Below are positions 6,007 through 23,886 of a stretch of 64,000 nucleotides of DNA, piece by piece; the stretch's first letter is position 1; every line of letters begins with the position of its first letter. A model generated the notes under the pieces. The model searched no databases and had not been told where the DNA came from. It worked only from the letters and a program-made list of their open reading frames with translations. Source of the DNA: Archaeoglobus profundus DSM 5631 (GTDB taxonomy: Archaea; Halobacteriota; Archaeoglobi; Archaeoglobales; Archaeoglobaceae); assembly GCF_000025285.1 (NCBI RefSeq), contig NC_013741.1, forward strand, positions 186,001 to 250,000, written 5' to 3'. Position numbers and translations under genes: made by a program.

Positions 6007-6248
6007 AAATTAAAGAAATTCTTGACAAGTTTAAGTGGCATCCCAATTACGATATCAGCAAGGTAACCGTAGTTTATATCGACAGACCGAAAGGCTTCTC
6101 TGAGATAAGAGGCGATGAAATTGAGAAGGCTGGATACAAGTTTCTCTATTTGAAATCTGGTCTGATGATTCCTGTTCATAGGGTTGTTGAAATAAGATAC
6201 GATAAAGAAGTTGTGTGGAGGAAGGGAGATGTTGAGAAGCAGGTTTAA
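6003..6248 (+). CDS. DUF504/UPF0248 family protein
   Basis: Small 81-residue archaeal family protein of unknown biochemical role, often linked to RNA metabolism by context. Seen: WHPNYDISKVTVVYIDRP near the N-terminus, then IPVHRVVEIRYDKEVVW near the C-terminus, both typical of the family. The start is TTG 6003, overlapping the stop of the preceding gene, with GGAGGA 5-10 bp upstream. Its last 20 bases overlap the argH start. Confidence 0.82.
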   Translation: MKIKEILDKFKWHPNYDISKVTVVYIDRPKGFSEIRGDEIEKAGYKFLYLKSGLMIPVHRVVEIRYDKEVVWRKGDVEKQV

Positions 6249-7641
6249 AAAACAAATGGATCCGCTGGCTTTGGAATTCACGTCGTCGATTGATCAAGAC
6301 AGATACATCTTCTACTACGACATACTTGTAGATTTAGCTCACGTCCTAGGTTTGCTTAAATGCGGTCATATAAGCAGAGATGATGCCAAAGCAATTATCA
6401 GGGCACTTCTTGAGATCAGAGACAAGGGCTACGAGGCCATACCTAAGGAATACGAGGATGTACATGAGGCTATTGAAGCTGAGGTTACAAAGCTAACGCA
6501 AGCTGGAAAGAAGATGCATACCGCGAGAAGTAGGAACGATGAGGTTGCAACGTGCTTGAGGATGTTTGCGAGGGATAGGCTACTTTCAATAGCTAGTGCA
6601 ATTTTAGATTTGAGAAGAGTTTTGCTGAAGAGGGCTGAAGAAAGTATAGATGTGATAATGCCGGGTTTTACGCATTTGCAATACGCGCAACCCACAAGAC
6701 TTTCTCATCATATCTTAGCATATCACGACATGCTCAAGAGAGATTTCGACAGAGTAATTGAGACGTTTAGAAGAGTAAATTTGTCCCCGCTAGGTGCCTG
6801 TGCATTCGCCGGGACATCCTTCGAGCTCGATAGAAATTATACAGCTGAGCTTCTGGGATTTGATGGTGTTGTAGAGAACAGCTGCGATGCTGTGGCTAGT
6901 AGGGATTTCCTGATAGAATCCGTTTTCGTAGCAACTCAGCTGATGCTAACTCTAAGTAGGATGGCTGAGGAGATAGTTTTATGGTGTTCCGAATTCGATT
7001 TCATCGATTTACCTGAGGAATATGCATCTACATCATCAATAATGCCACAGAAGAAAAATCCGGACGTTGCGGAGTTGATAAGAGCCAAGGCTGGTAGATT
7101 GATCGGTAATTTGACTGGAGTTATGAGCATTTACAAGGCTATGCCTCTGACATACAACAGAGACTTTCAGGAGATGAACGAAATACTGTTTAAATCGCTT
7201 GAGATAGCGGATTTATCCACAATTCTAATGGCTGGAATGTTTGAGAAAATCGTGTTTAAGACGGATGTTATGCGCGAAAAAGTTCTAAAGAGTTTTACAG
7301 TTGCAAGTGAAATTGCAGATAGGCTTACGAAGGCGGGAATTCCGTTTAGAGATGCACATAGGATCGTTGGCAGGGCTGTTGCTGAGGGTGATTTGAGTAA
7401 AGTTTTGGATATTGCCAAAGAGATGAGCTATGACGTTAAAGTTGATTTGGATGTGAGTGTTGAAGAAGTTGTTGAAGGAAGGAAGAATATCGGTGGCACT
7501 TCCAAGAGTGAAGTTTTGAGGATGATAGAAGACAGACTGGCCATGCTTGAGAAGGATTACGATACGCTGAATAGTATAATCGACTCCATAGTTCTAAAAC
7601 TCGAAAAACTTTACGGAGAAGTGGAACAACTGCTGAAGTGA
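6229..7641 (+). CDS. argH: Argininosuccinate lyase
   Basis: Splits argininosuccinate into arginine and fumarate, the last step of arginine synthesis. The fumarase/aspartase superfamily signature SSIMPQKKNPD is present near 270, plus TARSRNDEV and PGFTHLQYAQP in the first third. About 470 residues, full length. I chose ATG 6229 because GGAGG at 6217-6221 lies just upstream. A TTG at 6211 in the same frame precedes that Shine-Dalgarno and adds six residues with no family support. The gene ends the short operon that begins at 5022. Confidence 0.95.
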   Translation: MLRSRFKKQMDPLALEFTSSIDQDRYIFYYDILVDLAHVLGLLKCGHISRDDAKAIIRALLEIRDKGYEAIPKEYEDVHEAIEAEVTKLTQAGKKMHTARSRNDEVATCLRMFARDRLLSIASAILDLRRVLLKRAEESIDVIMPGFTHLQYAQPTRLSHHILAYHDMLKRDFDRVIETFRRVNLSPLGACAFAGTSFELDRNYTAELLGFDGVVENSCDAVASRDFLIESVFVATQLMLTLSRMAEEIVLWCSEFDFIDLPEEYASTSSIMPQKKNPDVAELIRAKAGRLIGNLTGVMSIYKAMPLTYNRDFQEMNEILFKSLEIADLSTILMAGMFEKIVFKTDVMREKVLKSFTVASEIADRLTKAGIPFRDAHRIVGRAVAEGDLSKVLDIAKEMSYDVKVDLDVSVEEVVEGRKNIGGTSKSEVLRMIEDRLAMLEKDYDTLNSIIDSIVLKLEKLYGEVEQLLK

Positions 7642-7711
7642 TACAAACTCAGCTAAGTTAACACACTCAACAGAGCAATCGAAAACACTAAATACTGCGT
7701 ACTGAAGTTGT

Positions 7712-7772
7712 ATAGACGTGATGATGTAGCCCGCGACTGATCCGTGATGAAAGAATCCAATTCTGATTATTA
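7712..7772 (+). ncRNA. C/D box guide sRNA (2'-O-methylation guide)
   Basis: All four boxes occur with canonical archaeal spacing: C GTGATGA (7718-7724), 12 nt guide, D' CTGA (7737-7740), 4 nt spacer, C' GTGATGA (7744-7750), 12 nt guide, D CTGA (7763-7766). The D' guide TGTAGCCCGCG (7725-7735) is complementary to CGCGGGCUACA, a conserved stretch of archaeal 16S rRNA in the 3' major domain (from memory, the 1220s-1230s in E. coli numbering). The nucleotide to be methylated pairs with the fifth base before D'. The target of the second guide (AAGAATCCAATT) is unknown. It stands alone in the argH-gatD gap and should act with L7Ae, Nop5 and fibrillarin. Confidence 0.88.
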
Positions 7773-7866: not shown

Positions 7867-9099
7867 ATGACGCTTGAAGGTAAGAGAGTCAGGATCAAGG
7901 CTAAAGGCAGGATTTTTGAGGGAATTGTAATGCCCTCTTTTACGGATTGTCTTGTCCTCAAGCTCGATAACGGTTATAACGTTGGCTTCAAGGATTACGA
8001 AGTTTTGGAGATTCTAGAGGAAAAGCCAATAAGTTTTCCCAAGCCGAAGATCGAAAAGAAGGAAGAGTTGCCGAATGTGATGATAATCTCAACTGGTGGA
8101 ACTATTGCGAGTAAGGTCGATTACAGGACTGGAGCTGTTACAAGCCAGTTTACAGCTGAGGAGATAGTTGGAGATGTCCCCGAGCTTTTAGACGTCTGCA
8201 ACGTCGATGCGATGCTTCTGTACAACATTCTCAGCGAGAACATGAAACCAAAGCATTGGATAGAGCTAGCGAGAGAAGTGTATAAAGCTATCAAGAAGGG
8301 GTACGAAGGCGTAATAGTAACTCATGGCACAGATACAATGCACTATTCAGCCTCTGCCTTGGCCTTCATGCTTTCAACACCAATTCCAATCGTATTTACG
8401 GGGGCACAGCGTAGTAGCGATAGACCTTCGAGCGATGCCTCGATGAATGTGTTCTGTTCAGCCGTAACGGCTGTATCGGATTTGGGAGAGGTTGTCGTTG
8501 TTATGCATGGAACAACTAGTGATGATTACTGTCTGATACACAGAGGAGTTAAGGTCAGGAAGTGTCACACATCGAGAAGGGATGCATTTAGAACTATCAA
8601 CTATACACCTTTGGGAAAAGTTCACTATCCGAGCGGGGAAATCGAGTGGATCGGTGAGAGGTTCAAGAGGGGAGAGAGAGAGCTCGAGCTTAGAGATAAA
8701 CTTGAGGAGAAATGTGTTCTGATAAAATTCTTCCCAGGCTTAAGTCCCGACATACTTGAATATTACTACGAGAGGGGTTACAGAGGATTCGTTTTGGAGG
8801 GAACTGGTTTGGGACACGTATCGACTGACTGGGTGGATACTATAAAGAGAATTGCTGAAGACAGCTTAATTGTAATGACTTCTCAATGTCTCTGGGGTAG
8901 GGTCTGTTGCAGAGTTTATGATACTGGAAGATACCTGCTCAGGGCGGGAGTCATTGAAGGTGAAGATATGCTTCCAGAAGTAGCTCTGGTTAAGGTGATG
9001 TGGTTACTTGGAAATTATGATCTTGAAGAGGCTAAGAAGCTCGTTAAAGAGAATTTGGTCGGAGAGATAACACCTTCAACGAGATACGATTACTCATGA
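7867..9099 (+). CDS. gatD: Glu-tRNA(Gln) amidotransferase subunit D
   Basis: Asparaginase-like subunit of the archaeal GatDE complex, which releases ammonia to convert Glu-tRNA(Gln) into Gln-tRNA(Gln). Residues 1-60 form the small beta-barrel that distinguishes GatD from plain asparaginases (GKRVRIKAKGRIFEGIVMPS). The asparaginase core has both threonine motifs, STGGTIAS (about 76) and THGTDTMHY (about 152). Length 410, as expected. gatE is not in this window. ATG 7867 is the family start. Confidence 0.94.
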   Translation: MTLEGKRVRIKAKGRIFEGIVMPSFTDCLVLKLDNGYNVGFKDYEVLEILEEKPISFPKPKIEKKEELPNVMIISTGGTIASKVDYRTGAVTSQFTAEEIVGDVPELLDVCNVDAMLLYNILSENMKPKHWIELAREVYKAIKKGYEGVIVTHGTDTMHYSASALAFMLSTPIPIVFTGAQRSSDRPSSDASMNVFCSAVTAVSDLGEVVVVMHGTTSDDYCLIHRGVKVRKCHTSRRDAFRTINYTPLGKVHYPSGEIEWIGERFKRGERELELRDKLEEKCVLIKFFPGLSPDILEYYYERGYRGFVLEGTGLGHVSTDWVDTIKRIAEDSLIVMTSQCLWGRVCCRVYDTGRYLLRAGVIEGEDMLPEVALVKVMWLLGNYDLEEAKKLVKENLVGEITPSTRYDYS

Positions 9100-9303: not shown

Positions 9304-9336
9304 CTGTGATTGTACCTATAATCCATAATTGTTGCG

Positions 9337-9411
9337 TTGGTGTATGTGCTCTCAATAATTCTGATGATAGCGGGTGTTATCGCTGGATTGAAGAGGGTGA
9401 AATCGTTATGA
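9337..9411 (+). CDS. Possible small single-helix membrane peptide coupled to the symporter
   Basis: A 24-codon ORF (TTG 9337 or GTG 9340) encodes a hydrophobic stretch YVLSIILMIAGVIAGL followed by basic KRVKS. Its TGA overlaps the ATG of the symporter gene (ATGA, 9408-9411), the arrangement expected for translational coupling. Some SSS transporters have a small membrane partner encoded just upstream (YhdT with PanF), so this could be a counterpart. There is no clear ribosome binding site and it may be chance. Confidence 0.35.
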   Translation: MVYVLSIILMIAGVIAGLKRVKSL

Positions 9412-10870
9412 TCGTAGAGACTATTGTATCGATCTACCTTACTTCGATGATATTGATAGGCATCTTTGAATACAGGAGAACGCGCGGAATATTGGATTAC
9501 TACTTGGCTGGTAAAAAGCTTGGTGTGTTTTTAGTAAGTTTCTCATTTTTTGCCACATACTTTTCAACATCTGCATTTTTGGGTGGAGGGGGGTTTCGGA
9601 TTTATAGCTGGTTTTCAGTGGTCGGCATTTCTCATATTCTTCCACATACTTTTTGCTATACTCGCTTGGATGGTGGTTGCACTACCTATGAAGGAGCTTA
9701 CTGATAAATACGGTGCTTTAACCGTCCCAGAGCTTTTCAAAATGAGATTTAGTAGAGCTACTCAAATAATATCGGCCGTTATAATCGTAGTCTTCTTCGA
9801 GTTCTATATGGTTTCCATATACAAGGGCGGAGGAAATCTCCTACAGATCATGATGGGTATGGATTATACCGCTGCTTTAGTAATGACGGCTTTAGTCGTT
9901 TTGATATATACATCCATCGGTGGTTTTAGGGCTGTCGTAACCACGGACCTTATTCAAGGAATTCTCGTCCTATTTGGCGGTATTGTACTGTTCTTGGGCG
10001 TTTTATACGAGCTTGGAGGGCCTTTTAAGGCTCTGGACATGCTTAAGAGCATTGAAATATTTGGTGGATACAGCGGTGAAGTCCTTTTTGAGTTCGGCGA
10101 GATTGCACCACCACCCGTAATGAAAGCTGGTATGGTTATACCCTTCATTCTCAGTTTAACTTTTGCCATAAGCATTGCACAGCTTGCGAGTCCTCAGCTC
10201 CGTGGTGAGATTTTTGGCTGCAAGAGACAGAAAGGTTATAGCACACGGTATGATATTGACACCTACGATCATCGGTATTTTCGCACTCTGCGTATTCAGT
10301 TTAGGACCTTTAGGATGGTTGGTAATTCCGAAGTACACCGACGTCACGCCGTTTTTAAAAGATCCGGACTTAGTTGTTCCTTTCATGGCTATGAAAATAC
10401 TACCTATAGGGTTAAACGCACTAGTACTCACCGCCGTCGTAGCTGCCGCAATGTCTACCATAAACTCTCTCGTTCACGTAGCTTCAACATCCTTCGTTAG
10501 GGATATAGTTCAAAATTTCACTAACTTAGATGATACGAAGGCATTAAAGCTTACGAGGTTTATGGTGGCTGTTTTTGCCGTCATACCGGTGTTATTCGCA
10601 TTAAAACCACCGAGTTACATAGTCGACATCGTCGGGCTGAGCTTTTCGGTTATAACTTCGGCATTTCTAATTCCTTTAATCTTTGCCCTCTACTCCAAGA
10701 AGGTTAGGGGTGTATCCGCAGCAGCTTCAATGCTTGTAGCTGTTGTAGTCCGTGGAATCTGGTATTACAAATTCTATAAAATTTATTGGATATATCCCGT
10801 CGTCTCGGGTTTGATTTCATCGCTATTTACATTCGTTATAATTGAAAGGCTAGTAGGCAGATTTAAATAA
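9408..10870 (+). pseudogene. Sodium:solute symporter family protein, two frameshifts
   Basis: The reading frame is broken twice, but together the pieces give one SSS-family transporter of about 485 residues. Frame 3 carries the N-terminus (IYLTSMILIGIFEYRRT, then DYYLAGKKLG and FFATYFSTSAFLGGGG). Frame 1 takes over after a run of six G at 9588-9593 (GFIAGFQWSAF through SLTFAISIAQLASPQL). Frame 2 takes over near 10198-10206 (VVRFLAARDRKVIAHG to the end). Removing one G from the first tract and one base from CTCCGTGG at the second point restores the family sequence. About 12 membrane helices are implied. Start ATG 9408 matches the family N-terminus. The substrate is not deducible. It is either a young pseudogene or carries sequencing errors. 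Confidence 0.82.
10861..10870 (+). promoter_or_regulatory. TATA box of the stomatin gene
   Basis: ATTTAAATAA centred about 25 bp before ATG 10890, so the stomatin mRNA is probably leaderless. The TATA overlaps the last codons of the symporter reading frame. Confidence 0.55.
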
Positions 10871-23830: not shown

Positions 23831-23886
23831 CCTCAGACCCGTGGAGGATCATCACCAATCAGTATGTGCAAAATTCATCATCGGCT
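23829..23886 (-). ncRNA. C/D box guide sRNA, antisense to the gene end
   Basis: On the minus strand all four boxes appear with canonical spacing: C ATGATGA (23881-23875), 12 nt guide ATTTTGCACATA, D' CTGA (23862-23859), 3 nt spacer, C' GTGATGA (23855-23849), 12 nt guide TCCTCCACGGGT, D CTGA (23836-23833). The RNA starts downstream of the DUF1646 gene's promoter side and ends at the methyltransferase stop codon. I could not match either guide to rRNA from memory. The 3' end abuts the NSUN gene and transcription is opposite to it. Confidence 0.85.

Follow-up and report, generated by a model that had tools for sequence, protein, structure and literature searches.

A 225-nt gap between argH (argininosuccinate lyase; Pfam Lyase_1 and ASL_C2, positions 6211-7641) and gatD (Pfam Asparaginase and GatD_N, 7867-9099), both on the forward strand, holds a predicted C/D box sRNA whose core, from box C to box D, lies at 7718-7766 on the same strand. 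Positions refer to the window, the whole stretch of 64,000 nt that was analysed (Archaeoglobus profundus DSM 5631, NC_013741.1 positions 186,001-250,000, forward strand); the genome (G000) comprises 1,563,423 bp in two contigs, with C1 accounting for 1,560,622. Box C (GTGATGA, 7718-7724) is followed by guide 1, the D' guide (TGTAGCCCGCGA, 12 nt, 7725-7736), box D' (CTGA, 7737-7740), the D'-C' spacer or k-loop (TCC, 7741-7743), box C' (GTGATGA, 7744-7750), guide 2, the D guide (AAGAATCCAATT, 12 nt, 7751-7762) and box D (CTGA, 7763-7766). The mature sRNA probably extends from ~7714 to ~7768, and ORFs of at least 60 aa overlapping 7718-7766 were not found. Downstream of gatD, at 9306-10500 (+), a transporter-like gene is apparently split into overlapping ORFs of 132 and 316 aa, possibly by a frameshift or as a pseudogene.

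The succession RUGAUGA, CUGA, RUGAUGA, CUGA, with guides of 12 and 12 nt and a spacer of 3 nt, is the one expected of an archaeal C/D box sRNA. All four boxes and both guide lengths given in a preliminary description of this DNA were thus recovered; its 4-nt D'-C' spacer is correct when C' is read as TGATGA, and becomes 3 nt with the 7-nt C' box used here. That the boxes are a chance arrangement in an intergenic gap rather than a gene is extremely improbable, since the strict four-box pattern, present twice in the window, appeared in 0 of 60 dinucleotide shuffles, the sRNA is kept in nine other genomes, and its guides give two independent rRNA matches (see below). No Rfam family reached its cut-off for the sRNA at 7718-7766; the best was RF01312 (sR9) with 31.1 bits against 36, a full-length but weak match to 7714-7768 that is driven by the boxes, and the guides of sR9 do not match those of the A. 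profundus sRNA. In RNA folding, the folding energy was no better than that of shuffles and the terminal stem was weak. A folding energy indistinguishable from shuffles is usual for the C/D box class.

A second complete C/D box sRNA was observed in the window at 23833-23881 (-) (Rfam snoPyro_CD, 45.2 bits). Its D guide TCCTCCACGGGT pairs with 11 nt of the organism's own 23S rRNA (836-846, predicted Gm840) and its D' guide ATTTTGCACATA with 9 nt (862-870, predicted Um865), making it a short-range double guide. Beyond the window, a C/D guide module, TGATGAnCTAATCCGCnnCTGA, is located at G000:C1:353132-353153 (-); its guide pairs with 10 nt of the own 16S rRNA (251-260), and it is kept in seven other Archaeoglobaceae genomes.

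Upstream of the sRNA in the argH-gatD gap, a BRE-like CGAAAA followed by the TATA-like CTAAATACT (7680-7696, +) forms a probable archaeal promoter, with the start of CTAAATACT 30 nt upstream of box C. In the closest relative, G002, CGAAAAGGTATAAATACT is found upstream of its sRNA at a nearly equal distance despite different flanks. The similarity of the whole upstream regions of the two species is modest, with 58 of 2000 shuffles scoring equally high.

Complements of both guides were searched for in rRNA and tRNA, as the preliminary description had proposed. Guide 1 forms 11 Watson-Crick base pairs with the own 16S rRNA at 1208-1218 (CGCGGGCTACA), so that the 16S motif which that description had given for the D' guide is genuine; a mismatch adjoins D' (A7736 against A1207). 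Guide 2, for which a 23S or tRNA target had been considered, instead pairs through 10 consecutive base pairs with 16S 935-944. When the guides were shuffled with their composition kept and compared with 16S and 23S together, 11 bp in the correct register were reached by guide 1 in 7 of 1500 trials, and 10 bp were matched by guide 2 in 2 of 1500; taken alone, the guide 1 match is only moderately improbable by chance. As candidate targets, 23S rRNA gave best properly placed runs of only 7 (guide 1) and 6 (guide 2), and among the 30 best-scoring of 44 tRNAs the best run for guide 2 was 5, while guide 1 had no comparable properly placed match in 23S or in the same 30 of 44 tRNAs. Runs of 10-11 nt near tRNA loci were located in the 1.5-kb flanks, outside the tRNAs.

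Archaeal guides are assigned by at least 9 consecutive pairs that include position +5 (PMC4644070), and both matches pass this threshold and cover the nucleotide 5 nt upstream of D' or D. By the fifth-nucleotide rule, guide 1 is predicted to direct 2'-O-methylation of 16S G1211, which aligns with E. coli G1231 on the 3' strand of helix 30, and guide 2 is predicted to give Gm939, aligned with E. coli position 962 (a C in E. coli) in helix 31. A 9-bp run at 16S 1196-1207, a partial second copy of the guide 1 target (CGGGCUACA repeat), would lead to methylation of G1200 instead of G1211. This is very unlikely, as that duplex is two base pairs shorter than the one at 1208-1218 and contains a mismatch at guide position 3 from the D' box. 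Since both guides match the organism's own 16S rRNA, the sRNA most likely directs methylation at two nearby sites of the ribosome. On the basis of boxes, pairing and conservation, we assign a probability of about 0.93 to the reading that 7718-7766 (+) encodes a double-guide C/D box sRNA with its own promoter, predicted to methylate 16S G1211 and G939.

The two predicted sites lie 272 nt apart in sequence and flank helix 30. In the Rfam archaeal SSU model, 1208-1217 are paired with 921-930 to form this helix, with G1211 opposite U927; the guide 2 site starts 3 nt past the 5' strand and takes in helix 31 on its 5' side. Positions 939 and 1211 are therefore distant in sequence and close in rRNA secondary structure, as is expected of the targets of a proposed chaperone double guide. 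The region of both targets, with the E. coli 966/967 loop and 1229/1230, lines the P site. A single sRNA with two guides on 16S rRNA at helix 30, sR15 of Nanoarchaeum equitans, has been proposed as a folding chaperone that bridges both helix 30 strands (PMC4644070), and together with the adjacency of the two A. profundus sites this would agree with an sRNA that is mainly an RNA chaperone, with methylation absent or secondary at one or both sites. We consider this mainly chaperoning role unlikely, because both +5 nucleotides are Watson-Crick paired and methylation is thus not contradicted. The two sRNAs also differ in their targets: for sR15 the reported targets are G930 and G1217/1218 (numbering of the paper; PMC4644070), on the two strands of helix 30, whereas guide 2 of A. 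profundus is directed at helix 31, just past the 5' strand of helix 30.

In the mechanism proposed here, the sRNA would be transcribed from its own promoter inside the argH-gatD gap, and its C/D and C'/D' motifs would be bound by L7Ae, Nop5 and fibrillarin, a gene for the last of which is present in the A. profundus genome. Guide 1 would pair with 16S 1208-1218 and guide 2 with 935-944, placing G1211 (E. coli G1231) and G939 (E. coli position 962), respectively, where their riboses would be methylated. As the sites lie on both sides of helix 30, the sRNA probably also keeps these distant stretches together during 16S folding.

The conservation of the guide pair was followed with two pattern searches, each allowing up to 2 mismatches and both run on one set of 394 genomes from the phylum. 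Good copies of the two guides, with no more than 1 mismatch, were found together in ten genomes, all Archaeoglobaceae and the same in both searches, and in none of the others among the 394. Across the ten, the duplex with the 16S site measures 9-11 bp for guide 1 and 10-12 bp for guide 2; for some of these genomes the assembly lacks a full 16S, and an invariant target was assumed. The guide cores are conserved, and the unpaired guide ends vary freely. Both target sites are identical in the 12 of 12 genomes in which the full 16S rRNA could be read, so that target covariation is unusable as evidence.

The order of the guides differs within the family. Guide 1 comes first (order 1-2) in three of the ten genomes (A. 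profundus, G002 and G035), and guide 2 comes first (order 2-1) in the remaining seven (G013, G010, G020, G029, G276, G028 and G008). Counted to the 7-nt C' box in both orders, the D'-C' spacer is 3-4 nt in order 1-2 and 8-9 nt, with the form GC-N3-4-GCG, in order 2-1. Flanking genes are shared only among G020, G029 and G276 and between G028 and G008, and all other copies are at unrelated loci. G002, a congener of A. profundus, has argH next to gatD, with a gap of ~25 nt that holds no sRNA; the G002 copy of the sRNA sits elsewhere, adjoining a coaBC-like gene. The argH-like and gatD-like sequences of G013 and G003 are likewise close together with no sRNA between them. Judged from these three genomes, a derived position of the gene in A. 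profundus is the simplest reading. In a tree of RpoA1 and EF-2, G035 (order 1-2) is nested in its genus, the other four members of which have order 2-1. The G035 sRNA nonetheless resembles those of G028 and G008: its guide 2 is identical to that of G028, and the GCCTTA that follows its guide 2 D box is the same as the internal spacer of G028 and G008, both in order 2-1. This hints at transfer between lineages.

Several further elements were observed at these loci. The G010 homolog is followed after ~8 nt by another C/D sRNA-like element (L124 1530-1586), giving four guide modules in tandem, and the G035 homolog is clustered with a tRNA gene and two C/D sRNA-like elements (L127 1018-1091, 1999-2052 (-) and 2088-2142 (+)). 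The G013 homolog lies directly after ORFs that by eye resemble cas4 and cas2 (L121 188-1423). RpoA1, the RNA polymerase subunit A', of G002 (C4 158907-162941) and of G010 (C9 78572-82612) carries an in-frame insert of ~450 codons at the identical site, probably an intein; the two genomes belong to different genera and their relatives are without the insert.

The occurrence of both guides, intact, at unrelated loci and in swapped order indicates that the sRNA gene relocates and is circularly permuted, with both targets kept and both orders intact. The same guide pair might also have arisen by convergence at unrelated loci. Most copies are without shared flanks, and Dennis et al. judged convergence to be common for shared single guides. 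For the pair it is nonetheless rather unlikely: identical guide pairing and register occur in ten genomes and in no other of the 394, the GCCTTA after the D box of G035 in order 1-2 recurs as the internal spacer of G028 and G008 in order 2-1, and guide 2 has a different partner in other archaea. The latter was seen as a C-guide 2-D module in Methanomicrobia, Thermococci and Methanofastidiosia MAGs (L037, L044, L045, L068, L082 and L091), indicating that modules have also recombined singly.

How a relocating, permuted gene would spread can be proposed only tentatively. A circular RNA or DNA intermediate that opens at either junction between the modules and then inserts elsewhere in the genome is one candidate, to which we give a low probability. 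The spacer of order 2-1 fits the idea that one junction represents what were once the closed ends of the molecule. The GC..GC hairpin of this spacer gave a folding signal not above shuffles, and being so weak it leaves the former ends as something that we infer. In A. profundus, a convincing flanking direct repeat as an insertion footprint was not found. If the circular intermediate were real, the copies would be relocated, permuted and functional, and the longer GC-N3-4-GC spacer would be the fossil of an end-to-end joint.

The A. profundus sRNA is an ordinary representative of a known RNA class, and the notable part is the behavior of the family in location and order. Two 12-nt guides, a short spacer, canonical boxes and duplexes of at least 9 bp covering +5 are shared with the archaeal C/D box sRNAs described in 2015 (PMC4644070); none of the differences is anatomical, and what differs is that the Archaeoglobaceae orthologs are non-syntenic and occur in both guide orders. 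A circular rearrangement exchanging two guides was proposed earlier for sR39, sR119 and sR88 of Methanopyrus kandleri from the single case of sR88. The three M. kandleri sRNAs are paralogs within a single genome, and sR88 has one decayed guide, whereas the Archaeoglobaceae copies come from different species and retain both guides intact. For C/D sRNAs, mobility and permutation by way of circular intermediates were likewise suggested from a single case, sRNA24 of N. equitans (Randau, 2012, PMC3491384), where a permuted and possibly mobile gene has D preceding C and circularization is needed for it to work. The Archaeoglobaceae sRNAs are instead cut between the guide modules, and both orders are complete linear sRNAs. 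Circular C/D sRNAs have been documented in several hyperthermophiles. For a between-species family with both guides intact in both orders, no published description was found in a survey that left work on the Pyrobaculum family outside.

For A. profundus, the sRNA provides two specific predicted 16S methylation sites beside helix 30 in a cultivated hyperthermophile. By what route archaeal C/D sRNA genes move, and whether their circular form participates, is a question raised by Randau (2012), and for it the family offers a comparative set in which the same guides occur at different loci and in both orders.
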